From assembly GCF_012911925.1 (NCBI RefSeq), contig NZ_JAAXKY010000003.1, positions 1 to 64,000 on the forward strand: a DNA stretch of 64,000 bases, in the 5' to 3' direction. Below, in pieces: positions 34,508-55,662 of this stretch. Source of the DNA: Pseudonocardia xinjiangensis (GTDB taxonomy: Bacteria > Actinomycetota > Actinomycetes > Mycobacteriales > Pseudonocardiaceae). The position numbers were made by a program, and so were the translations under genes. Within the stretch, counting starts at the first letter, position 1, and each line of letters begins with the position of its first letter. The notes below the pieces were generated by a model. It did not search any database, was not told the origin of the DNA, and saw only the letters and a program-made list of their open reading frames with translations.

Positions 34508-34525
34508 CATACCGTATGCAGTATG
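34508..34525. promoter_or_regulatory. GntR-type operator, site O1
   Basis: CATACCGTATGCAGTATG, an 18-bp palindrome with seven of nine pairs matching. It is the exact reverse complement of the site at 45794, 11 kb away. It starts seven bases after a possible -35 hexamer, so binding would block RNA polymerase. It stands ahead of the leader peptide and first antiporter gene. Confidence 0.8.
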
Positions 34526-34565
34526 TGAACCAGCACCGCGGCGGCGACACAAGGAGATGCGTTCC

Positions 34566-34649
34566 ATGTCTCAGCTGGTCCCCATGAGAGCCCTGCGGAC
34601 GTCCGAATCCACTCGTACACCACGAGTGGAAGCCTCACCAGTTCCCTGA
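34566..34649 (+). CDS. Possible 27-residue leader peptide
   Basis: MSQLVPMRALRTSESTRTPR and seven more residues. AAGGAG lies nine bases before the ATG, 40 bases after the operator. The coding region contains a perfect 8-bp hairpin (34609-34629), and its stop is followed by a second nested hairpin (34663-34702). A well-started short reading frame wound into hairpins ahead of a transporter gene suggests translational control or attenuation. The peptide has no signal sequence and no relative I recognise. It could also be a chance frame. Confidence 0.45.
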   Translation: MSQLVPMRALRTSESTRTPRVEASPVP

Positions 34650-34702
34650 GTGCGTGCCTGACGGCCGGTTCACCAGTGTTCTTGCTGGTGGACGCCCCGG
34701 CC
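34609..34702 (+). promoter_or_regulatory. Two leader hairpins ahead of the antiporter gene
   Basis: First hairpin: CCACTCGT / ACGAGTGG (34609-34616, 34622-34629), inside the leader peptide frame. Second: GGCCGG (34663-34668) with CCGGCC (34697-34702), enclosing CACCAG / CTGGTG (34671-34676, 34685-34690), just past the leader stop. Ribosome position on the leader could decide whether the second forms. Confidence 0.5.
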
Positions 34703-34908
34703 GGCAGGACCGGGTCCGTCCGGGGCCGGCTGAGACCGGACGGTCCGGAACCTATACCCAATACCCGGAGCAGCAGTGCGGCGGATACGCCGTAATGCGT
34801 GCTCGCTGAGCGTGTCCGCATTGCGGGCGCGCCCTCAGCCGACCCCGAATTCATCTGAACGGCACGACAAGAGGTCGCTCCACCCTCCCTCTCGTCAAAG
34901 GAGACGAC

Positions 34909-36294
34909 GTGACTGTCACGGATCGTGAGATAACCGACTCCAACGGGCGCGTCTATCGCGTCGGGATACCGGCCGAGCAGATTCTCGGCCGTTCGCGTAA
35001 CTGGATGATGTGGTTGCCCTGGGCGTCGATGTTCGGCGTCAGCGTCTTCGAGTACGGCTACGGCGCCGCGGAGAGCACCCTGGAGGACGTCCACGGCTGG
35101 TCGCTCGGACAGGCCTTCTGGCTCGTCAGCATCTGGACGGTGTTCCAGGCCGGCGTGGCCTTCCCGGCCGGACGGCTCCGGGAGAAGGGGATCGTCTCGG
35201 CCAGGGCGGCGATGCTCAGCGGTGCGGTGATGGTGTTCGCCGCGTTCGTGGTGCTCGGCCTGACCAGCAACCTCGTACTGAACTTCCTCTTCTACTCGGT
35301 CATCGGCGGGACCGGCGCCGGCCTCGTGTACGCCACCTCGATCAACATGGTCGGCAAGTGGTTCCCCGAGAAGCGCGGCGGGAAGACCGGTTTCGTCAAC
35401 GGCGCCTTCGCCTACGGCGCCGTGCCGTTCATCTTCGTCTTCAGCTACATGTTCAACGAGAGCAACTTCACGCTCGTCCTCACCCTCATCGCGCTGTACA
35501 TGCTGGTGATCGTCGGCGTGAGCGGCTTCATGTTCAAGGACCCGCCCAAGAACTGGTGGCCGAGCGACGTCGACCCGCTCGAGTGGGCGGCGAGCCCCAA
35601 GTCCGCGCGCAGCCTGGCCAAGAACCCGCCCGCGGTGAAGCAGTACGGCCCGATGGAAGCGATCAAGACCGGTCAGCTGCCACTCATGTGGTTCGCGCTG
35701 GCGATCATCGGCGGTGTGTCGCTGTTCGGGATCGGCTACCAGGTCGACTTCGCGAAGGAAGTGGGCTTCGGTCCGTTCATCGCGGCGTCCTCGGCGGGTG
35801 TGCTCTCGCTCGTCAACGGCTTCGGCCGCGGGTTCGTCGGGTGGCTCTCCGACCAGATCGGCCGCAAGGAGTCGCTGATCATCGTGCTGGTGGTCGAGGG
35901 AGTGGCGCAGTTCGGCCTGCTCTGGGGCGGGGACACCCACAACGAGGCGCTGTTCATCTTCTTCGCCTTCCTGGCGGGCCTCGGCGGTGGCGCCTTCTTC
36001 CCGATGTTCGCCGCGCTCACCCCCGACTACTTCGGGGAGAACAACAACGCGACCAACTACGGGCTCGTCTACAGCTCCAAGCTCGTCAGCGGACTCTTCG
36101 GGCTGGGGGTGGCGTCCTGGGTGGTCACGACGTGGGGTTACAACGGGGCCTACACGATCGCCGGTGCCATCGCGTTCGTGTCCGCGATCATCTCGTTGTT
36201 CCTGCGGCAGCCCGGCCGCGGCCAGCGCGCTTCGGTCTCCAGCCCCAGCGTGGGTTCCGCGAGCCACGCGGTGGCGGACGGGGGCCGGGCCTGA
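34909..36294 (+). CDS. OxlT-type oxalate/formate antiporter, MFS family (copy 1)
   Basis: A 461-residue major facilitator protein with 12 predicted helices, of the OxlT subfamily that exchanges oxalate for formate. The signatures include FEYGYGAAESTLED, the glycine-rich GGTGAGLVYATSINMVGKWF followed by PEKRG, and the cytoplasmic KDPPKNWWPSDVDPLEW. The gene context (frc, oxc, gcl) makes oxalate the likely substrate; formate, carbonate or another small acid could be the counter-ion. GTG start with AAAGGAG six bases upstream, after a 5' leader of nearly 400 bases from the operator. A 16-bp hairpin follows. A paralogue lies at 53006. Confidence 0.88.
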   Translation: MTVTDREITDSNGRVYRVGIPAEQILGRSRNWMMWLPWASMFGVSVFEYGYGAAESTLEDVHGWSLGQAFWLVSIWTVFQAGVAFPAGRLREKGIVSARAAMLSGAVMVFAAFVVLGLTSNLVLNFLFYSVIGGTGAGLVYATSINMVGKWFPEKRGGKTGFVNGAFAYGAVPFIFVFSYMFNESNFTLVLTLIALYMLVIVGVSGFMFKDPPKNWWPSDVDPLEWAASPKSARSLAKNPPAVKQYGPMEAIKTGQLPLMWFALAIIGGVSLFGIGYQVDFAKEVGFGPFIAASSAGVLSLVNGFGRGFVGWLSDQIGRKESLIIVLVVEGVAQFGLLWGGDTHNEALFIFFAFLAGLGGGAFFPMFAALTPDYFGENNNATNYGLVYSSKLVSGLFGLGVASWVVTTWGYNGAYTIAGAIAFVSAIISLFLRQPGRGQRASVSSPSVGSASHAVADGGRA

Positions 36295-36307
36295 TACTCA
36301 CGTGCTG

Positions 36308-36344
36308 ACCGACCGGACCGGGCGGCTCGCCCGGTCCGGTCGGT
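36308..36344 (+). terminator. Terminator hairpin of antiporter copy 1
   Basis: Perfect 16-bp stem ACCGACCGGACCGGGC / GCCCGGTCCGGTCGGT, loop GGCTC, 14 bases past the stop. Confidence 0.8.
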
Positions 36345-36465
36345 GGTCCACCTGGCCGGTCGACGCCGGCTCCGATGCGAGATGGAGATCGCTCGTGAAC
36401 CCTTCGAGGTGCAGGACGCAGCACGCATGTACCGGCGCCCCGCTCGTCTCACCGGTGGGTGCGAC

Positions 36466-37011
36466 ATGAGCAACGAGGAGCTGCTGCGGCGCCACGAGGC
36501 AGGTGGTGGCCGGCTCGCCGCGTCCAACGCCGCCGGTGCCGCTGCTGTCCCCGCACTGCGCACCGTGGTGCTGACGTGCATGGACGCGAGGATCGACGTG
36601 TCGCCCCTGTTCGGCCTCGAGCCGGGCGAGGTCCACGTCCTGCGCAACGCGGGAGGCGTGGTCACCGACGACGTGGTGCGGTCCGTGGTGATCAGCCAGC
36701 GGAAGCTGGGGACGCGGGACGTGCTGGTCGTGCAGCACAGCGGTTGTGGACTGGCCTCGTTCACCGACGAGGAGTTCTCCGAGGAGCTCGCGCTCGAGGT
36801 CGGGATGCGCCCGCCGTGGCGAACCCATGCGTTCGCGGATCCGGCGGTGAACGTGCGGCGCGGCGTGGCGCGCCTGCGGCACGACCCGTTCCTGCTGCCC
36901 GAGACGGTCGTGCGCGGCTTCGTGCTCGACATCGAGAGCTTCGCCCTCAGCGAGGTCACCGACGACGAGCCGGCGGTCCGCGGCGACGACGCGGTCAGGG
37001 AGTCGGCCTGA
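36466..37011 (+). CDS. Beta-class carbonic anhydrase
   Basis: Interconverts CO2 and bicarbonate with one zinc ion, in the cytoplasm. The ligands are C38 and H91, C94 in LTCMDAR and VVQHSGCGL, with the D40-Arg42 dyad. At 181 residues it is of the short actinobacterial type (like Rv1284). The ATG at 36466 is chosen because homologues begin with a similar SNEELL stretch; the longer upstream frame is not supported. It sits 170 bases behind the oxalate antiporter but after its terminator, so it probably has its own promoter. In an oxalate-degrading cell it could handle CO2 from decarboxylation, which is inference. Confidence 0.9.
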   Translation: MSNEELLRRHEAGGGRLAASNAAGAAAVPALRTVVLTCMDARIDVSPLFGLEPGEVHVLRNAGGVVTDDVVRSVVISQRKLGTRDVLVVQHSGCGLASFTDEEFSEELALEVGMRPPWRTHAFADPAVNVRRGVARLRHDPFLLPETVVRGFVLDIESFALSEVTDDEPAVRGDDAVRESA

Positions 37012-37072: not shown

Positions 37073-37093
37073 CAGGGGCGTACGGAGCCGGGC

Positions 37094-38143
37094 TCAGCCG
37101 GCGGACTTGCCGCTGGTCTCGGGCACCTCCTCGACCGGGTCGTCGCCCTTCTCCACGGTGGTGGTGGCCGGGGTGCTGCCGGCTGCGGCGGCAGCGGCGG
37201 CCGCATCGTCCTTGCGCGACTTCGCGAGGCTGGCCACCGTGGTGATGGCCAGCGTGCCGACGATGACACCCAGGGACGCCAGGATCGGGATCTCGGGAGC
37301 CCACGCGACGCCGTGGTGGTGCAGCGCCTCGAAGATCAGCTTGAAGCCGATGAACGCCAGGATGATCGCGAGGCCCTTGCTCAGGTACACCAGGCGGTCG
37401 AGCAGGCCACCGATGAGGAAGAACAGCTGCCGCAGCCCCATCAGCGCGAACGCGTTGGCGGTGAACACCAGGTAGGGCTCCTGCGTGAGCCCGAAGATCG
37501 CCGGGATGGAGTCGACGGCGAACAGCAGGTCGGTGGTGCCGATCGCCACCATCACGATGAGCATCGGGGTGACGAGCTTGCGCCCGTCCACCCGGACGGT
37601 CAGCGCGGCCCCGTGGTACTCCTTCGTCGACGGAACGAGCTTCCGGACCGTGCGCAGAACCCGGTTCTCGTTGAACTCCTCCTCCTCTTCCGAGTGCCGG
37701 ATGAGCTTCCAGGCCGTGTAGATGAGGAAGGCGCCGAAGAGGTAGAACATCCAGTCGAACCGCGCGATCGCCTCGGCGCCCAGCGCGATGAAGACACCAC
37801 GCAGGATCAGCGCCAGCACGATCCCGATGAGCAGCACCTTCTGGCGGTACTCCCGCGGCACGGCGAACCGGCTCATGATCAGCACGAAGATGAACAGGTT
37901 GTCCACCGACAGCGAGTACTCGGTGATCCACCCGGCGAAGAACTCGCCGCCGTACTGCGGCCCGGCGAAGGCCAGCACGCCGAGACCGAAAAGGACAGCG
38001 AGAGCGACGTAGCAGGAGACCCAGATCGTCGACTCCCGCATCGACGGATCACGGGGGTTACGGGCCACCAGATAGAAGTCGAAGGCCAGCACGGCGAGGA
38101 ACGCGCCTATCGTCGCGGCCCAGACCCAGAACGGAACACTCAT
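37094..38143 (-). CDS. TerC family integral membrane protein
   Basis: A 349-residue protein of the TerC family with seven to nine helices. The acidic motifs in the helices are present: EYSLSVDNLFIFVLI and TTDLLFAVDSIPAIF, the two paired blocks in which Asp residues are thought to bind metal. A cytoplasmic loop RHSEEEEEFNEN and an Ala-rich, acidic C-terminal tail complete it. The family includes tellurite-resistance TerC and manganese exporters such as Alx and MntP-like proteins; it probably moves divalent metal ions. GAGAG precedes the ATG. I looked for a manganese riboswitch upstream and saw none in the 90 bases available. Confidence 0.9.
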   Translation of the reverse strand: MSVPFWVWAATIGAFLAVLAFDFYLVARNPRDPSMRESTIWVSCYVALAVLFGLGVLAFAGPQYGGEFFAGWITEYSLSVDNLFIFVLIMSRFAVPREYRQKVLLIGIVLALILRGVFIALGAEAIARFDWMFYLFGAFLIYTAWKLIRHSEEEEEFNENRVLRTVRKLVPSTKEYHGAALTVRVDGRKLVTPMLIVMVAIGTTDLLFAVDSIPAIFGLTQEPYLVFTANAFALMGLRQLFFLIGGLLDRLVYLSKGLAIILAFIGFKLIFEALHHHGVAWAPEIPILASLGVIVGTLAITTVASLAKSRKDDAAAAAAAAGSTPATTTVEKGDDPVEEVPETSGKSAG

Positions 38144-38230: not shown

Positions 38231-38815
38231 TCACGAGGACCGTCGGGACTTCACCCGGGCGCTCCCGGACGCCGCCGGCACACGGCCGGCCTGACGCCGG
38301 GCGCGCTTGCGTTCCCGGGCCTCCCACATCGTCTGCGCGTGCTCCGCGTAGACGCCGAACACGCGGCGGGCGTCGGCGTTGTGGTCCTGGATCCGCATGA
38401 GCCAGTACGGCGCGATCCGCTCGTAGAGCCAGATGAAGCCGATCGCGAAGCCCATGCTCACCAGTGCCTGGAAGGCGAAGAACGTCAGCACGTCACTCGG
38501 TGGCGTGGGGTTGCCACCGAGCAGTACCGGCGTGACCGTCTCGTGGGTCAGACGCGAGACGGGGAAACCCACCATCCAGTAGAACGCCACGGGGGCGAAG
38601 ACCCCCGGCCGGAACCAGCCGCGGGCGACGAGCATCCCGTAGCCGACCCCGAACAGTGCGAGCGGCAGGCCGAGGGTCAGCGCGCCGACCGCAGCCCAGC
38701 CGACCGGCTGGCCCACGACGAGGGCCAGCAGACCGACCACGACACCCGAGACGGCCCCGATCGCCGCACCCGGAAGCCCGACCTCGGCAAGGTCAAGTGC
38801 TCTTGGCCTGCTCAT
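38231..38815 (-). CDS. Small membrane protein coupled to the Nramp-like transporter
   Basis: A 194-residue protein with four or five hydrophobic segments, then a basic C-terminal tail (ERKRARRQAGRVPA). No family is recognised. Its ATG (38813-38815) lies one base after the stop of the upstream transporter gene, so the two are made together. An accessory subunit of the transporter is the natural reading, but it is only inferred from the spacing. The segment FFAFQALVSMGFAIGFIWLY is its most hydrophobic stretch. Confidence 0.72.
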   Translation of the reverse strand: MSRPRALDLAEVGLPGAAIGAVSGVVVGLLALVVGQPVGWAAVGALTLGLPLALFGVGYGMLVARGWFRPGVFAPVAFYWMVGFPVSRLTHETVTPVLLGGNPTPPSDVLTFFAFQALVSMGFAIGFIWLYERIAPYWLMRIQDHNADARRVFGVYAEHAQTMWEARERKRARRQAGRVPAASGSARVKSRRSS

Positions 38816-38816: not shown

Positions 38817-40316
38817 TCAGTCCAACACCACGCCGAAGCGGATCAGGCTGTAGAACAGCATGCCCAGGTAGAACACGGCTCCGAAGCCGATGATCAGGTT
38901 GCTCCACAGCTTCGGACGGATCGGCTTGGGCAACAGCCGGTTGTTCACCAGGAGAAGCACGACGCAGTACGCGCCCATGGCGAACGTGGAGAGGAACGCG
39001 AGAACGTCCAGGATCGCGGCGGGACCGTCGGCCGGACCCCACAGCAGGATGCAGATCCCGAAGATGATCACGCCCCACAGGAACCCGGCGTAGAGATGCG
39101 CCATGCGGAACCGCTTGGCACCCGGGATGAAGTGGTAGGCCATGTCCGACTGCCCGCGGGAGAACGAGTCGAACAGGCCGAGCGTGGCGTTCAGGCCGAT
39201 CAGCGCGATGAAGCTCATGAACACCCCGCCGAGTGCCGGGATGCCCACCGATGCGAACGAGTCCGACATCGCGTTGAGAGCCGCTTCGCGCTCGCCGTCA
39301 CGCAGCAGGTTGACGACGTTCGGGCTGTTCCTCGCCGCCGCCTGTGCGAGCACGGTGAACGAGATCGTGACGAGCATCGTGATGCCCCAGAAGAGCAGCA
39401 GGGCGTCGAAGGTGACCCAGCGCCGCCAGCCGCGCCACTTGGCCATCTCCTCCGGGTCGTCCGTGTCGAACATGAAGCCACGCGACGGCATGACCTCTTC
39501 CTCGCCCGCGGAGCGCAGACCACGCAGCTGCGGGATGTGCGCGCCCATGCCGGCGCCCTTGTCCCGCAGGTGCAGCGTGTACCACATCTGCTGCATACCG
39601 GACGGGCCGGCGAAGGCGATCGAGCCGACGATCACCGGGAACCAGGCGGCCGTGAGGGCCTCCTCGGGCAGGTACCCGAAGGCGAACATGCCGGTGAGCG
39701 TGCTGGCCAGGTCGCCCCACGTGCCCACCAGCGACGCGATGATCGCCGTACCGACGACCAGCGTGCCGATCAGGATGGAGAGCACGGTCTCGAGCAGGTT
39801 GTAGATCACCTTCGCGAGCGTGAAGACCAGCCCGACCAGGACCATCCCGACGATCGCCGCGATCTGCCAGGAAATGCCCGTCACGGACTCGAACGCCAGT
39901 GCGCCGGCCGAGAGGTGACCTGGCCAGATGTAGATGAGTATTGCGATGGTAAAGAAGAACCACATGATCGGTTTGAACACGCGGGCGGCGCCAGTGAAAA
40001 TGCTCTCACCCGTTGCCATCGCGTACCGGGACATCTCCAGGAGTACAATTGCCTGGAGGGTCACCCCGATCAGGAAGAGCCAGCGGATCTCGGGTCCGAA
40101 CAACAGAACAAGCCGAGGCCACATGTAGGACTCGCCCATGCCCACGCCGAGCGCGACGAGGAAGACCGTCGGGCCGAGCAGGTGGACGGAGGGCGGAGCC
40201 TCGGGCAGCTTGCGGATGGGCATCGGTTCGAGGCCACCCGCGTGCCACACCCTTTCGGGGCTTGCGGCAGTCGTGTCCCCGGGTACTCCGGCGTCAGGCT
40301 GTTTCGATGTAGTCAC
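38817..40316 (-). CDS. Nramp-superfamily transporter lacking the metal-binding motifs
   Basis: A 499-residue membrane protein with 11 or 12 helices that follows the Nramp/LeuT-type pattern. The first helix reads GPTVFLVALGVGMGESYMWP where true Nramp proteins have DPGN, and the sixth reads IAFAGPSGMQQMWYTLH where they have the MPH motif. Manganese or iron transport by the usual site is therefore not expected. A large polar insertion (about 265-300, with DTDDPEEMAKWRGW) faces the cytoplasm. The substrate is unknown; its position between oxalate genes hints at an organic acid or related ion. It is cotranscribed with the small membrane protein at 38231. No copy of the oxalate operator lies upstream. 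Confidence 0.8.
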   Translation of the reverse strand: MTTSKQPDAGVPGDTTAASPERVWHAGGLEPMPIRKLPEAPPSVHLLGPTVFLVALGVGMGESYMWPRLVLLFGPEIRWLFLIGVTLQAIVLLEMSRYAMATGESIFTGAARVFKPIMWFFFTIAILIYIWPGHLSAGALAFESVTGISWQIAAIVGMVLVGLVFTLAKVIYNLLETVLSILIGTLVVGTAIIASLVGTWGDLASTLTGMFAFGYLPEEALTAAWFPVIVGSIAFAGPSGMQQMWYTLHLRDKGAGMGAHIPQLRGLRSAGEEEVMPSRGFMFDTDDPEEMAKWRGWRRWVTFDALLLFWGITMLVTISFTVLAQAAARNSPNVVNLLRDGEREAALNAMSDSFASVGIPALGGVFMSFIALIGLNATLGLFDSFSRGQSDMAYHFIPGAKRFRMAHLYAGFLWGVIIFGICILLWGPADGPAAILDVLAFLSTFAMGAYCVVLLLVNNRLLPKPIRPKLWSNLIIGFGAVFYLGMLFYSLIRFGVVLD

Positions 40317-40504
40317 AGTGGTGGACCTTCCGATTTGGTGCTTCGTACGGCCGTTCGCCCCTCGCCCATGACCTCCTTGTCGTGACGATGCGGCGACGGC
40401 CGACCCGGCCGGCTGTCCCTGGAGGGTGGGCGAAATCCCCCAGGGGACGCCGGTCGGGCCGACCGTCCCGTACCCGGTTCGGCGGCTAGGACCCGTCGAA
40501 CCGG

Positions 40505-40537
40505 TTCGAGCCGGCCCGCCGCGCGGGCCGGCTCGAA
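40505..40537 (-). terminator. Terminator hairpin of the oxc-frc-ligase operon
   Basis: Perfect 15-bp stem TTCGAGCCGGCCCGC / GCGGGCCGGCTCGAA with a three-base loop, seven bases past the stop of the acyl-CoA synthetase gene. Confidence 0.8.
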
Positions 40538-40543
40538 GATCTC

Positions 40544-42688
40544 TCAGATCAGTCCGGCACCCCGAGCCCAGCGGTACTTGGCTCCGAGGACCGCAACCGG
40601 CTTCTCGGTGGTGTAGGGGTATGCGACGACACCGTGCTGGTAGAGGTAGTCACTGGCTTCCTCGACCTCGGTGTCACCGGCGAGCGACGCCACGACGGGC
40701 TTCTCGATGCCCTTCTCCCGCGCCTCGGCCACCACGCGAGCGGTGAGCTCGGCGAAGACCATCGGCGGGGTGACGATCGTGTGCCAGTAACCCAGGATCA
40801 GGGCGTGGATCCGGTCGTCCTCGAGACCGAGCCGGATCGTGGCCTCGTACGTCGAGGGCGGCTCCCCACCGGTGATGTCGATGGGGTTGCCGGACGCGCC
40901 GAACGGCGGGATGAACGCCTTGAAGGCCTCGTCGAGGTCCTTCGGCATCTCCATCAGGTTGAGACCGTTCTCGACGACCGCGTCGGAGAGCAGCACACCC
41001 GAGCCACCGGCCCCGGTGATGATGACGACGTTCTCGCCCTTCGGCGTGGGCAGCACGGGGATGCCCCGGGCGAACTCGAGCATGTCGTTGAGCGAGTAGG
41101 CCCGCACGACGCCCGACTGGCGCAGGATGTCGTCGTAGACCTTGTCGTCGCCCGCGAGGGCGCCGGTGTGCGAGCTGGCCGCCTTGGCGCCCAGCGCGGT
41201 GCGTCCGGCCTTCAGCACGACGACCGGCTTCTTCTTGGTGATCCGCTGTGCCGCCTCGACGAAGGACCGGCCGTCCTTCAGGTCCTCGAGGTGCATCGCG
41301 ACGATGTTGGTGTCGGGGTCCTGCTCGAAGTAGGTGAGCAGGTCGTCCTCGTCCAGGTCGGACTTGTTGCCGAGGCCGACGATCGCCGAGACACCCATCT
41401 TGGTGGTCCGGCTGAACCCGAGGATCGCCATCCCGATGCCGCCGGACTGCGAGGTGAGGGCCGTGCCGCCCTTCACGTCGTACGGGGTGCAGAACGTCGC
41501 ACAGAGGTTCTGCGGCGTGTAGTAGTAGCCGTAGATGTTCGGGCCGAGCATGCGGACGCCGCCCTCACGGGCGATCTTGACGATCTCGTCCTGCAGCTCG
41601 TGGTTGCCCGTCTCCGCGAAGCCGGAGGGGATCAGCACGGCGGCGGGGATGTTCTTCTCGCCCACCTCGCGCAGCGCCTGCGGCACGAACTTCGCCGGCA
41701 CCGCGAACACCGCGACGTCGACCTCACCGGGCACGTCGAGGATGTTCTTGTAGGCCTTGCGCCCCAGGATCTCGTCGGCCTTGGGGTTGATCGGGTAGAT
41801 CTCGCCGGCGTAGCCCCCGTTGATGAGGTTCTTCATCACCGAGTTGCCGATCTTGCCGTTCTCGGCGGACGCGCCGATGACCGCGACGGCGTTCGGCCGC
41901 ATCATCCGGTTCATCGTGGCCAGGATCTCGTCCTGGGTGTACTTGACCGGCTCTACGAGATCCTCGGTCGCCAGCACGATCCGGACGTCGGCGGCGGACG
42001 CGCCGTCGGGCCGGGCGAACACAGGGTTGAGGTCGAACTCGCTGATCTGCGGGAAGTCGGTGACCAGGTCGGACAGGCGCTTGATGATGTCGGCCAGCGC
42101 GTCGGCGTCGGCCGGCTCGGCGCCGCGGGCGCCCTTCAGGACCTCGGCGGCAGCGATCCCGTCGAGCATGGAGTGCGCGGTCTCGGTGTCGACCGGGGCG
42201 AGCCGGAAGGTGACGTCCTTCAGGACCTCGACGAGCACGCCGCCGAGGCCGAAGACGATGACCTTGCCGAAGGTGGGGTCGGTGGTGGCCCCGATGATCA
42301 CCTCGTGGCCGCCGCTCAGCATCTGCTGCACCTGGATGCCGTCGATGGTGGCATCGGCGTTGTAGGCCTTGGCGTTGGCGATGATCTCGTCGTAGGCGCT
42401 GCGCACCGCCTCGTCACCCGAGACGCCGACCTTGACGCCGCCGGCCTCGGTCTTGTGCAGGATCTCCGGCGACACGATCTTCATCACGACCCGGCCGCCG
42501 AGCTCGCCCGCCAGCCGCACCGCCTCGTCGGCCGAGCCCGCCAGGCCCTCGCCCGGCGTCGGGATCCCGTAGGCCTCGCACACCAGGCGGCCCTCGGGGG
42601 CGGTGAGCGAGTCACGGCCCTCGGCGCGGGCCTTGTCCAGGACCTCGCGTACCGCGTCTTTGTCGTAGGCCACGCTCTCCTGAGCCAT
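40544..42688 (-). CDS. NDP-forming acyl-CoA synthetase (acetate-CoA ligase superfamily)
   Basis: A 714-residue fusion with an N-terminal ATP-grasp domain (RVVMKIVSPEILHKTEAGGV), then a CoA-binding domain (NAVAVIGASAENGKIGNSVM) and two succinyl-CoA-synthetase-like domains. H507 in SSHTGALAG is the His that is phosphorylated in the family. It interconverts an acyl-CoA plus NDP and phosphate with the free acid, CoA and NTP. Its ATG lies two bases after the frc stop, so it belongs to the oxc-frc operon. Formyl-CoA (yielding ATP) or oxalate (yielding oxalyl-CoA) are the obvious substrates in context; the sequence alone does not decide. Confidence 0.88.
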   Translation of the reverse strand: MAQESVAYDKDAVREVLDKARAEGRDSLTAPEGRLVCEAYGIPTPGEGLAGSADEAVRLAGELGGRVVMKIVSPEILHKTEAGGVKVGVSGDEAVRSAYDEIIANAKAYNADATIDGIQVQQMLSGGHEVIIGATTDPTFGKVIVFGLGGVLVEVLKDVTFRLAPVDTETAHSMLDGIAAAEVLKGARGAEPADADALADIIKRLSDLVTDFPQISEFDLNPVFARPDGASAADVRIVLATEDLVEPVKYTQDEILATMNRMMRPNAVAVIGASAENGKIGNSVMKNLINGGYAGEIYPINPKADEILGRKAYKNILDVPGEVDVAVFAVPAKFVPQALREVGEKNIPAAVLIPSGFAETGNHELQDEIVKIAREGGVRMLGPNIYGYYYTPQNLCATFCTPYDVKGGTALTSQSGGIGMAILGFSRTTKMGVSAIVGLGNKSDLDEDDLLTYFEQDPDTNIVAMHLEDLKDGRSFVEAAQRITKKKPVVVLKAGRTALGAKAASSHTGALAGDDKVYDDILRQSGVVRAYSLNDMLEFARGIPVLPTPKGENVVIITGAGGSGVLLSDAVVENGLNLMEMPKDLDEAFKAFIPPFGASGNPIDITGGEPPSTYEATIRLGLEDDRIHALILGYWHTIVTPPMVFAELTARVVAEAREKGIEKPVVASLAGDTEVEEASDYLYQHGVVAYPYTTEKPVAVLGAKYRWARGAGLI

Positions 42689-42690
42689 GG

Positions 42691-43917: not shown

Positions 43918-44019
43918 CGCTCCCCCTCGCTGCGCGAGGCGGAAGCTTCGCGCAGGCAGTGTGTCGTTGGCTCGCTCGCAAACTCGGTCATCCGTCTGCT
44001 CCCCACGGATCGGCGGTGA

Positions 44020-45793: not shown

Positions 45794-45811
45794 CATACTG
45801 CATACGGTATG
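45794..45811. promoter_or_regulatory. GntR-type operator, site O2
   Basis: CATACTGCATACGGTATG, identical to site O1 read on the other strand. It lies 47 bases before the oxc-like start and should control the leftward operon. Confidence 0.82.
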
Positions 45812-45914: not shown

Positions 45915-45932
45915 CATACTGCATACTGAATG
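45915..45932. promoter_or_regulatory. GntR-type operator, site O3
   Basis: CATACTGCATACTGAATG shares 16 of 18 bases with site O2 and has the same orientation. It lies 28 bases before the GTG of the ketopantoate-reductase-like gene. O2 and O3 are 121 bp apart in the divergent gap, so joint control or looping is possible. Confidence 0.72.
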
Positions 45933-48990: not shown

Positions 48991-49883
48991 GCCGACGTCC
49001 TGCCCGACACGTTCTCGAGCACCTTCAGCAGCACCGAGTGGTCGAGCGATCCGTAGCCCTGGGCCTTGGCCGCAGCGATGAGCTGGGCGATGAGCCCGGT
49101 GACCGGCAACGCCACGCCGGCCTCCCGCGCCGCCGCGAGCGCGATACCCATGTCCTTGTGGTGCAGGTCGATGCGGAAGCCGGGCGCGAACTGCCTGGCC
49201 ACCATCGACTCGCGCTTGAGCTCGAGGATCCGGCTCCCGGCGAGCCCACCGGCCAGGACGTCCAGGCCGCGGCCCGCGTCGACCCCGGAGGCCTCCAACA
49301 GGACGATCGCCTCGGCCACGAGGGCGTACGTGCCGCCCACCACGAGCTGGTTGGCGGCCTTGACCGTCTGACCTGCCCCGCTGGGACCGACGTGGACGAT
49401 CGTCTTGCCGAGCACCTCGAGGATCGGCAGCGCGGCGGTGAAGACGTCCTCCTCGCCCCCGACCATGATCGACAGGACGCCGTCGATCGCGCCCTTCTCA
49501 CCGCCGCTGACAGGGGCGTCGAGGGCGCGGACACCGCGGGCGGTGGCCTCCTCGGCGACCTTGATCGACGTGTCGGGCCGGATCGTGCTCATGTCGATCA
49601 GCAGCAAGCCGGGGTTGGCGTTCTCGAGGACCCCACCTGCCCCGAGGATCACCTCCTCGACGTGCGGCGAGTCCGGCAGCATCGTGATGACGACGTCGGC
49701 GTCGGCCGTGACGGCAGCCACCGAGTCGGCGGCCTTCCCCCCGGCCGCGCCGAGTTTCTCCAGTGCGGCGGGCTGTGCGTCGTAGCCGATCACGGTGTGG
49801 CCGGCCTTGAGCAGGTTGGCGGCCATCGGACCGCCCATGATGCCCAGGCCGACGATCCCGATCGTGCTTGTCGTTGCTGTCAC
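48987..49883 (-). CDS. glxR: Tartronate-semialdehyde reductase (2-hydroxy-3-oxopropionate reductase)
   Basis: Reduces tartronate semialdehyde to D-glycerate with NAD(P)H. A 298-residue beta-hydroxyacid dehydrogenase: dinucleotide motif GLGIMGGPMAANLLKAGH, substrate motif DAPVSGGEKGA, and catalytic K175 with N178 in GQTVKAANQLVV. The GTG start at 49883 overlaps the hyi stop by four bases, and its own stop overlaps the gcl start; the longer open frame upstream is only the shadow of hyi. It is the usual partner of Gcl. Confidence 0.95.
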   Translation of the reverse strand: MTATTSTIGIVGLGIMGGPMAANLLKAGHTVIGYDAQPAALEKLGAAGGKAADSVAAVTADADVVITMLPDSPHVEEVILGAGGVLENANPGLLLIDMSTIRPDTSIKVAEEATARGVRALDAPVSGGEKGAIDGVLSIMVGGEEDVFTAALPILEVLGKTIVHVGPSGAGQTVKAANQLVVGGTYALVAEAIVLLEASGVDAGRGLDVLAGGLAGSRILELKRESMVARQFAPGFRIDLHHKDMGIALAAAREAGVALPVTGLIAQLIAAAKAQGYGSLDHSVLLKVLENVSGRTSA

Positions 49884-50746
49884 ACGGACTCCTCGACGGT
49901 CGCGGTGGTACGGAGATGCCGGGGGAGCCACTCGAAGCTGTCGGCGCTCGGCCCCACCGGCTTGTACTCGAGACCGACGTGGCCGCTGTAGGCGCTCTTG
50001 GCCAGCCGGTCGAGCAGGACGGGCCAGTCGATGTCGCCCGTGCCCGGCTGGCCGCGGCCGGGTACGTCCGCGATCTGGACGTGCCCGAACCGGTCGGCCC
50101 GCCGCTCGACGAGCTGCTCGATCGGCTCGCCCATGCGGGCGAGGTGATAGAGGTCGGCGAGGAACGCGATGTTGGGGACGTCGTGGATGACCCGGAGGTA
50201 GTCGATCAGGTCGAGCGCCTCGTGCGAGGACGTGATCGGGTAGTCGGGACTCTCGATGCTGTTGAGTGCCTCGATCACGACGGTGGCCCCGGCCCGTTCC
50301 GCGGCCCGCGCGGCGAGCACGAGGTTCTCCGTGGCGAGCTCCCGCTGCTCGGGCACGCTCGACTCGGGGTCCCGGTTGCCGTAGAGGGCGTTCAGCGTGG
50401 TGCAGCCGAGCGAGGCGGCGAAGCCGACGGCCACGTCGATGTTCGCCCGGAAGCGCTCGCTGTCGCCGGGCCGGGAGAGCAGTCCCCGGTCGCCCGCCGC
50501 CATGTTCCCGGCGTCGAAGTTGAGGCCCACCAGCCGGGTGCCCGCGTCGAGCAGCGCGTCGCGGAGCTCGTCGAGCTCCCGGTTGGACGGGACCGGCTCG
50601 GCGAAGGGCCACCACAGCTCGACGGCGTCGAAGCCGGCTGCCGCGGCGGCGGCGGGTCGCTGCAGCAAGGGCAGCTCGGTGAACAGGATGGACAGGTTGA
50701 CGTCGTAGCGCAGTGCCGGCTCAGGCACGTGGGCGGCGTCGGACAT
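49880..50746 (-). CDS. hyi: Hydroxypyruvate isomerase
   Basis: Interconverts hydroxypyruvate and tartronate semialdehyde. A 288-residue TIM-barrel protein of the xylose-isomerase-like family. The two catalytic Glu residues are visible in VVIEALNSIESPDY and GHVGLEYKP, and metal ligands in FLADLYHLARMG and HVQIADVPGRGQPGTG. It starts 64 bases behind sucD with no terminator in between, so it continues the sucCD transcript and leads into glxR and gcl by overlapping codons. Confidence 0.94.
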   Translation of the reverse strand: MSDAAHVPEPALRYDVNLSILFTELPLLQRPAAAAAAGFDAVELWWPFAEPVPSNRELDELRDALLDAGTRLVGLNFDAGNMAAGDRGLLSRPGDSERFRANIDVAVGFAASLGCTTLNALYGNRDPESSVPEQRELATENLVLAARAAERAGATVVIEALNSIESPDYPITSSHEALDLIDYLRVIHDVPNIAFLADLYHLARMGEPIEQLVERRADRFGHVQIADVPGRGQPGTGDIDWPVLLDRLAKSAYSGHVGLEYKPVGPSADSFEWLPRHLRTTATVEESV

Positions 50747-50810
50747 ACGGCTCCTCCCGGAGTCGACGGACGTGGCGACGACGGCTGGCAGGTCGTCCTG
50801 GAGGTGGCGC

Positions 50811-51695
50811 CTAACGCGCGATGAGCTCGCGCATCAGGTCGGCGGTCTCGCTGGGGGTCTTGCCGACCTTGACCCCGGCGGCCTCGAGGGCTTCCTTCTT
50901 GGCCTGGGCGGTGCCGGCGGAGCCGGAGACGATGGCTCCGGCGTGGCCCATGGTCTTGCCCTCGGGGGCGGTGAACCCGGCGACGTAGCCGACGACGGGC
51001 TTGGTGACGTTGGCCTTGATGAACTCCGCGGCGCGTTCCTCGGCGTCGCCGCCGATCTCGCCGATCATCACGATCGCGGTGGTGTCGGGGTCGGCCTCGA
51101 ACGCGGCCAGTGCGTCGATGTGGGTGGTGCCGATGACCGGGTCACCACCGATTCCGATAGCGGTGGAGAACCCGATCTCGCGCAGTTCGTACATCATCTG
51201 GTAGGTCAGCGTGCCCGACTTCGACACCAGCCCGATCGGACCGGCGCCGGCGATATCGGCCGGGATGATGCCCGCATTCGACTTGCCGGGGCTGATGATT
51301 CCCGGGCAGTTCGGGCCGATGATCCTGGTGCGATTCCCCCGAGCGGAGGAATGGGCCCAGAAATAGGCCGAGTCGTGCACCGGAACACCTTCGGTGATGA
51401 CGACGGCAAGCCCGATCTCGGCGTCGATCGCCTCGATCACGGCGTCCTTGGTGAACTTCGGCGGCACGAATACGACGCTGACGTCGGCCCCGGTCTCCTT
51501 CATCGCCTCCTCGACGGTGCCGAAGACGGTGAGGTCCTTGCCCCCGATCGACACGGTGGTGCCGGCCTTGCGGGCGTTGACACCCCCGACGATGTTGGTG
51601 CCGGCGGCGAGCATCTTCGCGGTGTGCTTGGTGCCCTCACCGCCGGTGATGCCCTGGACGATGACCTTGCTGTTCTCGTTGAGGAAGATCGCCAT
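50811..51695 (-). CDS. sucD: Succinyl-CoA synthetase alpha subunit
   Basis: A 294-residue alpha subunit that binds CoA and carries the phosphorylated His, H251 in [11 protein letters not shown]. The CoA-binding start is [20 protein letters not shown] and the conserved [14 protein letters not shown] block is intact. The ATG lies three bases behind sucC. Both subunits look like ordinary actinobacterial enzymes rather than malate-CoA ligase, but I cannot separate these by eye. The operator ahead of sucC places this copy in the oxalate regulon, so it is perhaps a second, dedicated copy beside the citric-acid-cycle one. Confidence 0.93.
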
Positions 51696-51698: not shown

Positions 51699-52880
51699 TC
51701 AGACCCCCGCGGCCGCGAGTTCGGCGGCCCGGTCGGCCGCGTTGTCCATCGTGTCCACCTGGGTGACCAGCGGGTGGTTCGCCTCGTCGAGGATCCGGCG
51801 GCCCTCGAGCACGTTGTTGCCGTCCAGCCGCACGACCAGCGGCTTCGTCGCGGCGTCACCGAGGATCTTCAGTGCCTCGACGATGCCGTTGGCCACCGCG
51901 TCGCACGCGGTGATCCCGCCGAAGACGTTCACGAACACCGACCGCACGTCCGGATCGCCGAGGATCACGTCCAGCCCGTCGGCCATCACCTGCGCGGAGG
52001 CGCCGCCGCCGATGTCGAGGAAGTTGGCCGGCTTGACGCCGCCGTGCTTCTCACCGGCGTAGGCCACGACGTCGAGCGTGGACATCACCAGCCCGGCGCC
52101 GTTCCCGATGATCCCGACCTGGCCGCCGTCGAGCTTGACGTAGTTGAGGCCCTTGGCCTTCGCCTTCGCCTCGAGCGGGTTCTCGGTGCGCTGGTCGACC
52201 AGGTCGGTGTGGCCGGGGTGGCGGAAGTCGGCGTTCTCGTCGAGGGTGACCTTGCCGTCCAACGCGATGACGGTGCCCTCGGCGTCGGAGATCAGCGGGT
52301 TGACCTCCACCAGCGTGGCGTCCTCCGCCACGAAGGTCTCCCAGAGCTTCGCGATCACCTCTGCGGCGGCGTCGGCCACGTCCAGCGGGAAGCCGGCCTC
52401 GTCGACGATCGCGCGGGCCCGCTCCACGTCGCACCCGATGAGCGGGTCGATGGGCACCTTCGCGAGGGCGTCGGGGCGCTCGGCCGCGAGCTGCTCGATC
52501 TCCATCCCGCCCTCCGCGCTGGCCATGGCCAGGAAGGTGCGGTTGGCCCGGTCGAGCAGGAAGGAGACGTAGTACTCCTGCGTGATCTGTGAGGCCTCGG
52601 CCACCAGCACGCGGTGCACGGTGTGGCCCTTGATGTCCATGCCCAGGATCTCGTGGGCCTTCTCGTTGGCCTCTTCCGGGGTCTTCGCGAGCTTCACGCC
52701 GCCCGCCTTGCCCCGGCCGCCGACCTTCACCTGCGCCTTGATGACGACGGCCCCGCCGATGTCGCGGGCCACCGCCTCGGCTTCCTCCGGCGTGACCGCG
52801 ACGGAGCCGCGGGACACCGGGACGCCGTGAGCCTCGAACAAGTCTTTCGCCTGGTGCTCGTACAGGTCCACCTGCGGCAT
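51699..52880 (-). CDS. sucC: Succinyl-CoA synthetase beta subunit
   Basis: A 393-residue beta subunit with an N-terminal ATP-grasp domain ([20 protein letters not shown]) and a C-terminal domain with [14 protein letters not shown] and [15 protein letters not shown]. With SucD it makes succinyl-CoA from succinate, CoA and ATP or GTP, or the reverse. It is the first gene of a five-gene operon sucC-sucD-hyi-glxR-gcl. The operator at 52911 lies 31 bases upstream of the start and should overlap the promoter. In this operon the pair may supply succinyl-CoA as CoA donor for oxalate activation, which is inference. Confidence 0.93.
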
Positions 52881-52910: not shown

Positions 52911-52928
52911 TCGACTGTATGCAGTATG
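52911..52928. promoter_or_regulatory. GntR-type operator, site O4
   Basis: TCGACTGTATGCAGTATG matches the consensus fully in its right 12 bases and partly on the left. It lies 31 bases before the sucC start, on the left side of the gap between sucC and the second antiporter. Confidence 0.72.
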
Positions 52929-52975: not shown

Positions 52976-52993
52976 TATTTGGCATACAGTATG
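52976..52993. promoter_or_regulatory. GntR-type operator, site O5
   Basis: TATTTGGCATACAGTATG fits the consensus in its right 12 bases; the inner CATACAGTATG is itself a palindrome. It touches the ribosome binding site (GGAGGGAG) of the second antiporter gene. The O4 and O5 centres are 65 bp apart. Confidence 0.7.
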
Positions 52994-53005: not shown

Positions 53006-54397
53006 ATGGGTGAGCCGGAAGGCGATGCCGCCTACCAGGAGGTCCGCGACTGGTACGGCCGCAGGTACCGCGTCGGAGAGGACCCCGTGGCACTGATCGG
53101 GCGCCCCCGATCGTCGATGCTGCGGCTGGCCTGGATCCCGATGGCAGCGGTCGGAGTGCTCCAGTACGGCTACGGGGCCGCGGTCCCGGCGCTGATGGCG
53201 CGCAACGGCTGGGGCCTCGCCGGAGCCTTCTGGCTACTCGCGGTCTGGACCGTGTTCCAGGCCGGCGTCGGTTTCCCGACCGCCTACCTCCGTGAGCGCC
53301 GTCGCCTGGGCCCGCGTGCCGTGATGATCACCGGTGCCGCGTTGAGTGCGCTGGGACTCGTCTCGCTCGCCCACAGCACCAGTCTGCTCGGCGCGCTGCT
53401 GGGCTACTCGGTACTGGGAGGCACCGGCGCGGGCCTCGTCTACGCGGCCTGCACCTCCACCGTGGCCAAGTGGTACCCGGAGCGCATGGCCTCCCGCGTC
53501 AGCAGGGTGACCGGAGCGTTCGCCTACGGTTCGGTGCCCTTCGTCGTGGCCGCGGTCATCGGGCTCGACGCCGCCAACCTCACGCCGGTCCTCGACGTGG
53601 CAGCGGTGGCGCTGTTCCTCCTGGTGGCAGGCACCGGGATGTACTTCAGGGACCCGCCGGCGCGCTGGTGGCCCGCCGAGGTCGACCCGCGGGCATGGGG
53701 ACTCGGCCACATCGGCAACCCCGGGCGGCGGAAGAACCCTCCGGCGATCCGCGAGTACTCGGCCCTGCAGGCGATCCGCACCCGGGTCATGACCGTGATG
53801 TACGCGATCCTCATCGGCGCGGGCGCGGTCTCGTTGTTCAACGCCGCGTTCGTGGTGGTCTTCGCCTCCGGCTTCGCCGCGGGAGCCGGTGTGGTCGCTC
53901 TCGCGGCCGGTGTTCTCGCCGGGGTGAACGGGGCCAGCCGCGCGGTGTCCGTCGGGATCTCCGACCGGCTCGGCCGCTGCCCGACGCTCACCGTCGTGCT
54001 GCTGGTGCAAGCCGTGGCGCAGCTGCTGTTCGCGCTCTCGGCGAGCACCGGCTCCACCGTCGCGATGGTGCTGGCAGCGGCGCTGGCCGGGCTGGGCGGC
54101 GGCGGCTTCTACCCGCTGTTCGCCAGCATCGCCAGGGAGTACTTCGGCGAGCAGAGCGCCTTCGAGGTGCACGGCCTCGTCTACAGCGCCAAGGCCGGGG
54201 GCGGGGTGCTCGGTGTGGGACTGGCCGCGCTCGCCGTCACCTCGTGGGGCTTCGCCACCACGTTCCTCGTGGCCGCGTTCGTCTCGCTCGGGTCGGCGTG
54301 GGCGACCGGCGCACTGCAGCGGCCGGGCCTGCCGAGCCTCCTGCCCTCTGCGCGGATCTCGGAGCAGGGTTCAACGCCCTCGCGGTACGCCACCTGA
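53006..54397 (+). CDS. OxlT-type MFS antiporter (copy 2)
   Basis: A 463-residue major facilitator protein, paralogous to the one at 34909: the shared patterns are YGYGAAVPALM, AVWTVFQAGVGFPTAYLRER, GGTGAGLVYAACTSTVAKWY and FRDPPARWWPAEVDPRAWG. Twelve helices are predicted. It differs from copy 1 in several charged residues of the second half, so it may prefer another acid or the opposite exchange. The ATG at 53006 follows GGAGGGAG; the operator lies directly before that. It is divergent from the sucCD-hyi-glxR-gcl operon. Either oxalate uptake or export of a product such as formate or glyoxylate could fit. Confidence 0.85.
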   Translation: MGEPEGDAAYQEVRDWYGRRYRVGEDPVALIGRPRSSMLRLAWIPMAAVGVLQYGYGAAVPALMARNGWGLAGAFWLLAVWTVFQAGVGFPTAYLRERRRLGPRAVMITGAALSALGLVSLAHSTSLLGALLGYSVLGGTGAGLVYAACTSTVAKWYPERMASRVSRVTGAFAYGSVPFVVAAVIGLDAANLTPVLDVAAVALFLLVAGTGMYFRDPPARWWPAEVDPRAWGLGHIGNPGRRKNPPAIREYSALQAIRTRVMTVMYAILIGAGAVSLFNAAFVVVFASGFAAGAGVVALAAGVLAGVNGASRAVSVGISDRLGRCPTLTVVLLVQAVAQLLFALSASTGSTVAMVLAAALAGLGGGGFYPLFASIAREYFGEQSAFEVHGLVYSAKAGGGVLGVGLAALAVTSWGFATTFLVAAFVSLGSAWATGALQRPGLPSLLPSARISEQGSTPSRYAT

Positions 54398-54412
54398 GCC
54401 GCTCCCCCTCCA

Positions 54413-54456
54413 TCCATCCCTGGGCCGCTCCGCCGGTGGAGCTGTCCAGGGATGGA
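54413..54456 (+). terminator. Terminator hairpin of antiporter copy 2
   Basis: Perfect 11-bp stem TCCATCCCTGG / CCAGGGATGGA with an inner CTCC / GGAG stem, 16 bases past the stop. Confidence 0.75.
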
Positions 54457-54468
54457 CCCCGTGCCGTG

Positions 54469-54669
54469 TCAGGAGGCGCGGGAGTAGGGGCCCTCGGCCG
54501 CAGGAACCGTCTCGGTCGAGGGACGGATCGGCTGGACGTCGGCGCCGTGGGTCCGCTGGGCCCGCAGTGCGGCGTCCAGGCCGAGCCCGAGCGCCCGGCC
54601 GTCGGCGTTGAAGCCTCGCGGCATGGTGGACAGGGCGCGCACAACCTTGCGCATCGTTCGCATTCTCAT
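54469..54669 (-). CDS. Small hypothetical protein, 66 residues
   Basis: A short gene of very strong actinobacterial codon use (nearly every third base is G or C). The product begins MRMRTMRKVVRALSTMPRGF and ends with a Pro/Ser-rich stretch; it is basic at the front and has no membrane segment. GAGG lies just before the ATG at 54669. I recognise no family. It stands between the second antiporter and the GntR gene, 260 bases downstream of the latter, and converges on the antiporter terminator. Confidence 0.55.
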   Translation of the reverse strand: MRMRTMRKVVRALSTMPRGFNADGRALGLGLDAALRAQRTHGADVQPIRPSTETVPAAEGPYSRAS

Positions 54670-54927
54670 CACCTCGTGTAGATGGTCTTCCCGATCCGTG
54701 CGCCGGTATGCATGCCGGCGCACGGCTGCGCCGTCTGTAGGCGTGGTGGAAGCAGCAGCGCGCGGCGCTGCGCGTTCAGGGGGTGTTCCCGGGGTCGCTC
54801 GGCAGCGCGTGCGGCAACGGTGCGGCGTGCGAGAAGTGACACGGGACGTCGACGTCGACGTGAAGGCAGTCGTCGTCGACCGGGGAGCCCGTCGGCGTCG
54901 ACGGGAGAGGGTGTGGTGCGGGTCGGG

Positions 54928-55662
54928 CTAGGGCTGGCGGGCCGTGACCGGCCGCGCGGGTGTGCCGGCGTCAGCGCCGGACTTGTCCTGCTGCTCGAGG
55001 TACGACACGCGCGTGTGCTCGGTGTGCGCGTGCATCACCTCGGCGGCGCGGTCGGCGTTGCCCGCCGCGATCGCGTCGATCAGCGCCGAGTGCTCGCTCC
55101 AGCTCTGCGCGCCGCGGTGCCGGGCCACGGGGGTGTAGTACCAGCGCACCCGCCGGTCGACCTGGCTGGCGAGCTCGACCAGCACGTCGTTGCGGGAGAG
55201 CCGCATGACCGTGGCGTGCAGCTCGGCGTTGAGGGCGACCATCGTGGCGACGTCCTCGGCCTCCAGCGCCGCGAAGCCCTGACGGCAGAGGTCGCGCAGG
55301 TGGGTGATGCCCTCCTCCGTGACGTGCTGGGCGGCCAGGCGTGCCGACTCCGTCTCCAGGAGCCTGCGCACGGCCAGCAGCTGGTCGGCCTCCTCGACGG
55401 TGGGGGTGTGGACGTACGCACCCAGCCCCGGGCGCAGGTCCACCCATCCGTCGTTCTTCAGCCACTGCAGAGCCTCCCGGACCGGCTGGCGGGAGACGCC
55501 GAGCATCACCGCTAGCTCGCTCTCCACCAGGTGCTGACCTGGCTGGAGGTTCCGGCTGACGATCATGTCCAGGATCGCGTTGTATACGCTCTCGCGGAGC
55601 GGGACCGGCCGGGCGATACGGCGTGCGCCGGCGGCCTCGTGTTGCGTCTCGGACAATGACAT
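54928..55662 (-). CDS. FadR-type GntR transcriptional regulator, likely oxalate regulator
   Basis: A 244-residue regulator. The winged helix lies at about residues 22-80 (LRESVYNAILDMIVSRNLQP, ESELAVMLGVSRQPVREALQ), and the C-terminal FCD ligand domain at about 90-220 has Asp and His metal residues in ALNAELHATVMRLS and EHSALIDAIAAGN. FCD-type GntR proteins usually sense small carboxylic acids through a bound metal. It is the only regulator in the oxalate region, so it is the likely reader of the five CATAC...GTATG sites. No full copy of that site lies before its own gene; a different 20-bp palindrome does. The open frame upstream of 55662 is not coding. Confidence 0.9.
   Translation of the reverse strand: MSLSETQHEAAGARRIARPVPLRESVYNAILDMIVSRNLQPGQHLVESELAVMLGVSRQPVREALQWLKNDGWVDLRPGLGAYVHTPTVEEADQLLAVRRLLETESARLAAQHVTEEGITHLRDLCRQGFAALEAEDVATMVALNAELHATVMRLSRNDVLVELASQVDRRVRWYYTPVARHRGAQSWSEHSALIDAIAAGNADRAAEVMHAHTEHTRVSYLEQQDKSGADAGTPARPVTARQP

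Follow-up and report, generated by a model that had tools for sequence, protein, structure and literature searches.

Oxalate is consumed by soil actinobacteria. Its assimilation through PanE2/ApbA2 was reportedly described by Schneider in 2012. Growth of Cupriavidus necator on oxalate is slowed by loss of apbA2 and abolished by loss of frc-oxc (PMC7486775), and PanE2 has been characterised as a putative oxalyl-CoA reductase (PMC8411744; here and below, statements on published systems refer to the available part of each paper). Among regulators, HypR of Streptomyces coelicolor is a zinc-binding repressor whose own site covers the -10 region (PMC6608401), and the FadR subfamily has the operator consensus NyGTM-N0-1-KACNy (Suvorova 2015, PMC4494728). 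Here we analyze a window of 64,000 nucleotides from Pseudonocardia xinjiangensis (contig NZ_JAAXKY010000003.1, positions 1 to 64,000), in which the region from 34508 to 55662 carries genes related to oxalate utilisation and ends with a gene for a GntR/FCD regulator, P0001. Comparison with other genomes strongly supports a regulon predicted from sequence, with a wider membership than the preliminary description of the region saw and with one misnamed key enzyme: very probably, one FCD-type GntR protein represses a dispersed set of oxalate genes through the 11-bp palindrome CATACNGTATG.

The preliminary description had proposed an 18-bp palindrome at five places, each ahead of an oxalate-related unit (sites 1 to 5, Table 1). 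Our scan of the window finds this 18-mer exactly at 34508-34525 and 45794-45811, the two being mutual reverse complements, with two mismatches at 45915-45932 and with three at 52911-52928; shuffled windows give an expectation of 0.02 such matches per 64 kb. The fifth site (52976), also described as a close variant, is not matched by the 18-mer at up to three mismatches and is recovered only through an inner exact core, CATACNGTATG, at 52983-52993. The element that the sites share is this 11-bp palindrome, usually with one extra half-site 7 bp off, on one side only. Across the scanned loci there are 110 sites with at most one mismatch (80 exact), of which 102 lie near a regulon gene; the consensus over these 102 is CATACNGTATG plus a one-sided A-T-A-Y-TG half-site, with flank frequencies somewhat inflated because the sites were oriented toward the third half-site before counting.

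The core is rare in the genome to which the window belongs (7,764,260 bases; G000). Four exact copies are present, at 34508, 45801 and 52983 of the window and at C66:26353 on another contig, and the core pattern read backwards has one match in the same genome. A genome-wide search with the variant 18-mer CATACTGCATACNGTATG at up to three mismatches returns four window sites together with C66:26346, a conserved site in the promoter of a GNAT gene, and C247:15759. The last has three mismatches, lies 61 bp before a tyrosine-recombinase-like open reading frame (ORF; named by eye), is without support as a regulon site and is probably a chance match. A frequent and randomly placed motif had been named beforehand as evidence against the regulon, and with four exact matches the proposal stands.

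Regulator and site go together in other genomes. The 60 relatives, G000 among them, include 13 with an orthologue of the regulator, taken as a GntR protein of at least 58% identity, and all 13 carry two to five cores (47 in total, 3.6 per genome); of the 47 relatives without it, three have one core each (0.06 per genome). A sample of 298 genomes from the order, which has G000, G039 and G047 in common with the first and in which orthologues were taken at 55% identity or more, contains 18 genomes that encode the regulator. All 18 hold a core (46 in total, 2.6 per genome), while 35 of the 280 genomes without the regulator hold any (41 in total, 0.15 per genome). Nine of those 280 have a GntR homologue of 40-43% identity, and none of the nine has a core.

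The cores also lie ahead of the same genes. In the 13 relatives, 42 of the 47 precede a regulon gene: 31 are in the oxalate cluster (ahead of frc, panE, sucC, hyi, an antiporter gene, or the gene in the oxc position, here called the 'oxc'-slot gene), five precede a GNAT gene, three an alpha-carbonic anhydrase gene, and three an antiport-family major facilitator superfamily (MFS) gene beside clpX, the one in G029 being a tblastn match without a called ORF. Of the 18 order-sample genomes, 17 have a cluster site with at most one mismatch ahead of the 'oxc'-slot gene or frc. In the remaining one, G114, no 'oxc'-slot gene is found at E 1e-150; this genome encodes the regulator and carries two cores, one ahead of an aldehyde-dehydrogenase-like frame (named by eye). 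Similarly, G011 (L059) has the regulator, frc and a site ahead of frc, and no 'oxc'-slot gene at E 1e-150. Only these two genomes separate the regulator from the 'oxc'-slot gene.

The association extends through the class. In 28 genomes outside the order that bear the 'oxc'-slot gene, the regulator is present in every case (best match 58-65% identical), and 18 of the 28 hold an exact core somewhere. Within 400 bp upstream of the 'oxc'-slot gene, the site is found exactly in 11 of the 28, with at most one mismatch in 21 and with at most two in all 28. In the same test, shuffle controls give means of 0, 0.12 and 1.8 (largest values 0, 1 and 8), and the next-best of 30 palindromes of the same composition gives 0, 2 and 8. 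Nonomuraea gerenzanensis has the full set panE-oxc-frc-ligase-Nramp-hyp-TerC-gntR-antiporter-sucCD-hyi-glxR-gcl, with sites, and in Streptomyces fungicidicus and Streptomyces sp. BHT-5-2 a form with one mismatch, CATACAGTATT, precedes the 'oxc'-slot gene. The regulon proposed for the region is strongly supported, since regulator and sites occur together and the sites recur at equivalent genes in other families and orders, but it is not confined to the region.

We confirmed that a single FCD-type GntR gene closes the region: P0001 has a GntR-type helix-turn-helix (HTH; PF00392, 66 bits, gathering threshold 27) and an FCD domain (PF07729, 85 bits, gathering threshold 24.3), and the next GntR protein of the genome by E-value is 33% identical. 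All 63 unique orthologues keep the FCD residues N145, H149, H191 and H213, which we take to be metal ligands; the histidines among them are frequent also in other FCD homologues. The passage on zinc in HypR (PMC6608401) supports this assignment. Position 59 in the recognition helix is Q in all 63 unique orthologues and G in all nine motif-less homologues (40-43% identity), and by spacing it corresponds to Thr52 of HypR, which is listed as DNA-contacting (PMC6608401). The gntR promoter in the window has no site (best match three mismatches), and autoregulation there was rejected; some relatives have sites ahead of gntR or of a gntR/panE divergent promoter. G012 (L044) has one oxalate cluster with a GntR paralogue on either side (68% and 65%); the 'oxc'-slot gene of this cluster aligns only over residues 1-377.

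The placement of the sites suggests how the regulator would act. In the window, they appear to lie on a -10 element (antiporter 1 and panE) or just past it ('oxc' slot and antiporter 2), where bound GntR would block RNA polymerase, which favours repression. The promoter-like pairs concerned come from a scan for site 3 and were assigned by eye for the others. Site 1 overlaps TGGACA-17-CAGTAT (34496-34524) and has counterparts 350-356 bp ahead of antiporter 1 in G034 and G008; site 2 is just downstream of TGGACA-17-TACCAA on the minus strand (45846-45818); site 3 overlaps the -10 of TTGACG-16-CATACT (45900-45927); and site 5 falls between TTGTGT-17-CATTAT (52950-52978) and the ribosome-binding site of antiporter 2. 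Across genomes, a scan run without a shuffle control places a TTGACA-like hexamer (at least 5 of 6 positions) starting 33-41 bp upstream of the core at 24 of 27 distinct 'oxc' sites. With distances taken to tblastn alignment edges and not to start codons, 22 of 27 sites of antiporter 2 are within 0-48 bp of the gene, while at sucC and antiporter 1 many are farther upstream (77-121 and 350-390 bp, respectively). Helical phasing of paired sites was rejected on inspection of the sequences, their spacings of 52-188 bp having no fixed period.

The sites, their conservation across genomes and their association with the regulator are observed; from them we infer a mechanism that covers promoter elements, DNA binding, repression, inducer and enzyme activities. 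The GntR protein would bind CATACNGTATG, in many cases lengthened to YATACTGCATACNGTATG by a third half-site, and would repress two antiporter-family transporters, the operon of the 'oxc'-slot enzyme (a thiamine pyrophosphate, TPP, enzyme), frc and a ligase, the PanE-like reductase, sucCD-hyi-glxR-gcl and the distant GNAT gene. Release would come from an inducer, for which oxalate is the likeliest candidate and oxalyl-CoA or glyoxylate are others; oxalate would bind the FCD domain at its conserved metal-type N/H/H/H site, a chelating diacid being suited to a metal site. Imported oxalate would be activated by Frc with formyl-CoA, or perhaps with succinyl-CoA renewed by SucCD, after which part would be decarboxylated for energy and part reduced to glyoxylate and assimilated by Gcl, Hyi and GlxR.

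Several observations weigh against this interpretation. The -35-like hexamer is fixed at 'oxc' only; the same scan finds no fixed hexamer at panE (10 of 25, scattered), sucC (2 of 22), antiporter 2 (2 of 26) or GNAT (0 of 5). Together with the distant sites before sucC and antiporter 1, this would suit an oxalate-dependent activator, or a protein that activates and represses according to site position, as Escherichia coli FadR does both (PMC6608401). However, the 'oxc' site follows its promoter-like pair, window sites 1 and 3 lie on a -10-like hexamer and site 5 precedes the ribosome-binding site (partly by eye), and we consider activation unlikely; because the promoter evidence is uneven, we keep a small weight on it and stop short of calling repression certain. 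A more general difficulty is that regulator and 'oxc'-slot gene occur together in 54 of 54 distinct genomes that have the latter, so that presence alone hardly separates a site that follows GntR from one that follows the cluster. Moreover, Cupriavidus metallidurans CH34 (L206:4094) has the exact sequence CATACCGTATG before its 'oxc'-slot gene, where the adjoining GntR protein shares only 28% identity and differs in its helix. Both points would allow some other DNA-binding protein that accompanies oxalate clusters to read the palindrome while GntR regulates something else. We judge this very improbable: G114 has the regulator and cores without an 'oxc' match, Q59 goes with the motif, and clusters with the same 'oxc' and no GntR orthologue in Caballeronia and in two Phyllobacterium have no site at up to one mismatch in the stretches scanned. 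Also to be set against repression by P0001 are the 10 of 28 class-level genomes without an exact core, the missing site at gntR in the window, and the centre of CATACNGTATG, which is AC-N-GT and not the FadR-type GTM-N0-1-KAC, a consensus that is common but not defining and has exceptions in PMC4494728. Finally, among the 47 cores of the relatives, five (L036, L041, L051, L063 and L068) lie at unrelated genes and are chance or unexplained. The stray cores in genomes without the regulator (41 in 280 and 3 in 47 genomes) might suggest that nothing more than chance or general promoter sequence lies behind the palindromes, a notion already contradicted by the rarity of the core, its co-occurrence with GntR and the shuffle and palindrome controls, and to which we give almost no credence.

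A separate question, compatible with repression by GntR, concerns one enzyme. The name oxc given earlier to the gene at 44020-45747 failed on both profile cut-off and catalytic residues. Its product scores 229 bits against TIGR03254 (cut-off 739), with 245-251 bits in three relatives, and its best match among solved structures is to a 2-hydroxyacyl-CoA lyase (264 bits), while entry 2c31, named oxalyl-CoA decarboxylase (OXC), gives 176 bits. The catalytic residues of OXC are Y134-E135, Y497 and S568 in MeOXC numbering (PMC8411744). Located through alignment with the Skermanella OXC, they are absent in four of four actinobacterial sequences: YEE, NNSGIY and ESG of the Skermanella protein stand against LQD, NNSSMI and MN-gap. 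Among the best 120 of 7873 relatives, those that the sources name are called acetolactate synthase or TPP-binding protein; identities are 76-93% among the actinobacterial genomes found and 63-66% in some proteobacteria. The enzyme could therefore be a 2-hydroxyacyl-CoA lyase or carboligase rather than an OXC, and the regulon would then serve formyl-CoA or glyoxylate chemistry. We find this doubtful, if clearly the most substantial of the alternatives: the gene holds the place of the canonical oxc in an operon of like make-up (Skermanella GntR-oxc-frc-ligase-sucC-sucD), it adjoins frc, which needs formyl-CoA, and the only other TPP enzyme of the cluster passes the Gcl cut-off. Further afield, frc is again its neighbour in Cupriavidus metallidurans, in Caballeronia and on two Phyllobacterium plasmids, where an annotated oxlT is adjacent as well. 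To us it seems fairly likely that the 'oxc'-slot gene encodes an oxalyl-CoA decarboxylase of a second type. At L210:12196-13026, the oxalate cluster of a Phyllobacterium that has this TPP enzyme adjoins a regulator annotated as BhcR, with no GntR orthologue found in that stretch.

Table 1. Operator sites and genes of the oxalate region, in window coordinates.
Feature	Position	Strand	Remarks
Site 1	34508..34525		exact core CATACCGTATG at 34508-34518 plus third half-site
Antiporter 1, oxalate/formate-antiport-family MFS	34909..36294	+	TIGR00890 173 bits, below cut-off
Beta-carbonic anhydrase-like gene	36343..37011	+	possible regulon member
TerC/Alx family membrane protein	37094..38143	-	possible regulon member
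Uncharacterised 194-amino-acid protein	38231..38815	-	lies between Nramp and TerC, also in several relatives
Nramp family transporter	38817..40571	-	true start probably downstream of 40571
Nucleoside-diphosphate (NDP)-forming acyl-CoA ligase (acetate--CoA ligase family)	40544..42703	-	counterparts in three other frc operons
frc, formyl-CoA:oxalate CoA-transferase	42691..43959	-	TIGR03253 660 bits, cut-off 504 (passed)
'oxc'-slot gene, non-canonical TPP enzyme (HACL/OXC superfamily)	44020..45747	-	TIGR03254 229 bits, cut-off 739
Site 2	45794..45811		core CATACGGTATG at 45801-45811
Site 3	45915..45932		CATACTGCATACTGAATG; core with 1 mismatch at 45922-45932
PanE/ApbA-family reductase, candidate oxalyl-CoA reductase	45960..46937	+	NF005089 443 bits, cut-off 223 (passed)
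gcl, glyoxylate carboligase	47188..48990	-	NF008431 883 bits, cut-off 791 (passed)
glxR, tartronate semialdehyde reductase	48987..49868	-	TIGR01505 over cut-off
hyi, hydroxypyruvate isomerase-like	49880..50791	-	below cut-off
sucD-like	50811..51695	-	over cut-off
sucC-like	51699..52880	-	over cut-off
Site 4	52911..52928		core degenerate (3 mismatches), GTATGCAGTATG direct repeat intact; ahead of sucC
Site 5	52976..52993		exact core CATACAGTATG at 52983-52993
Antiporter 2, oxalate/formate-antiport-family MFS	53006..54397	+	below cut-offs
GntR/FCD regulator (P0001)	54928..55662	-	GntR and FCD domains

The other gene names of the preliminary description held to differing degrees (Table 1): frc, gcl, glxR, sucC, sucD and the PanE-like reductase score over curated cut-offs, gcl falling just under that of TIGR01504 (702.7 against 711.2), while hyi and the antiporters are family matches below cut-off. 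By its family and its neighbourhood with frc, the reductase resembles PanE2/ApbA2 and is probably an oxalyl-CoA reductase. The ligase gene has counterparts of 72-73% identity in three other frc operons, and the 194-amino-acid protein has no Pfam or NCBIfam match. The leader of antiporter 1 (34526-34908) is 380 nt long and contains a 27-codon ORF (found by eye) that is kept in G034 and not in G008; across the three genomes, conservation of the leader is concentrated in its first ~100 nt and just ahead of the start. On this pattern, and because folding of the first 145 nt does not surpass that of shuffles (z -0.99), Rfam gives no match up to E 5 and the short ORF is absent from G008, we rejected a riboswitch or attenuator here. 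Upstream of acs, we observed a 6C RNA (29579-29653; 82 bits, over the gathering threshold of 47) and a match resembling the small RNA Ms1 (30701-30942; 95 bits, under the gathering threshold of 162).

Beyond the region, an additional putative target is a GNAT gene (L001:5250-5807, equal to G000 C66:25752-26306) with a site in six genomes. All six close orthologues (at least 78% identity) are in genomes that bear the regulator and have a core 38-46 bp upstream, five exact and one with one mismatch, while the three distant homologues checked (47-54%) have no core at up to two mismatches in ~3.5 kb. The five exact loci share no other gene within 3.5 kb, and the nearest solved structures of the GNAT protein are RimJ/RimL-type acetyltransferases. 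A gentisate-dioxygenase-like bicupin beside the C66 site was considered as an oxalate decarboxylase and dismissed, since it scores 334 bits against TIGR02272, under the cut-off of 442, and since the conserved neighbour of the site is the GNAT gene on the opposite strand. In relatives, the regulon further includes an alpha-carbonic anhydrase gene with its own site in three genomes (one protein was scanned, the others being 82-88% identical) and, as a third antiport-family MFS gene, the one beside clpX.

It had been stated that no site precedes the carbonic anhydrase, TerC or Nramp genes. This is literally true in the window, but relatives link carbonic anhydrase and metal genes to regulon operons: Nramp-hyp-TerC, in which hyp is an unnamed membrane protein, follows the ligase gene on the same strand in L042, L120, L128, L129, L130, L133 and L134, and a beta-carbonic anhydrase gene follows sucCD in G305. 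Folding of the window reveals a perfect 17-bp hairpin between antiporter 1 and the beta-carbonic anhydrase-like gene and a 15-bp hairpin between the ligase gene and Nramp, neither of which is reported by a simple terminator scan that requires a T run; some ligase-Nramp junctions in relatives also hold a hairpin-like gap (by eye). These hairpins may end the antiporter 1 and ligase transcripts, so that leaving out the carbonic anhydrase, Nramp and TerC genes may be right for the window. For the window, the beta-carbonic anhydrase, TerC, 194-amino-acid protein and Nramp genes are possible members of the regulon.

A class-wide operator provides a direct route to oxalate-use genes in actinobacterial genomes, predicts an oxalate-responsive promoter that is usable as a sensor, and points to a widely misnamed TPP enzyme and a GNAT protein as candidates for tests of their roles. 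In its broadest form, which we offer tentatively, the switch for oxalotrophy throughout the Actinomycetes would be one metal-dependent, oxalate-sensing FCD repressor, inherited across the class and acting on a three-half-site operator. Its sites would then reveal a hidden pathway with a non-orthologous, so far unrecognised type of OXC that is now labelled acetolactate synthase, with a dedicated GNAT protein, and with carbonic anhydrase and metal-transport genes whose functions are tied to oxalate breakdown. If true, this coupling would be the bacterial half of the oxalate-carbonate pathway. Our literature search found no paper on a GntR-controlled oxalate regulon among the matches listed, which is weak evidence of novelty as subscription journals are poorly covered; 'oxalate' is absent from the main text of PMC4494728, and 'regulator' and 'GntR' from that of PMC12927642, as available.

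It is instructive to compare the locus with the known systems. Like P0001, HypR combines a GntR HTH with an FCD domain and has several dispersed targets (PMC6608401). In contrast to the region studied here, with CATACNGTATG at oxalate genes, it recognises CTNTGC(A/C)ATGTCAC at hydroxyproline genes, and it regulates itself, whereas gntR in the window is without its own site. Operators of the FadR subfamily and CATACNGTATG are alike in being short palindromes with AT-rich half-sites (PMC4494728). What sets CATACNGTATG apart is its third half-site, which lies 7 bp off on one side; the direct GTATG repeat is reminiscent of NanR (TGGTATAW repeats), an exception in that paper. A plasmid operon of Skermanella mucosa (NZ_CP086108.1) shares the order oxc-frc-ligase and an adjacent GntR gene, but its canonical oxc is 27% identical to that of the window, its GntR protein is 30% identical to P0001, and its stretch holds no CATACNGTATG at up to one mismatch. 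A metabolic parallel exists with Methylobacterium extorquens and Cupriavidus necator, which combine frc-oxc with a CoA-acylating glyoxylate dehydrogenase of the PanE family and with the Gcl pathway, a set that the region also appears to encode. The available text of PMC7486775 and PMC8411744 describes no regulator for those genes, whereas here predicted sites of one GntR protein stand before all branches.

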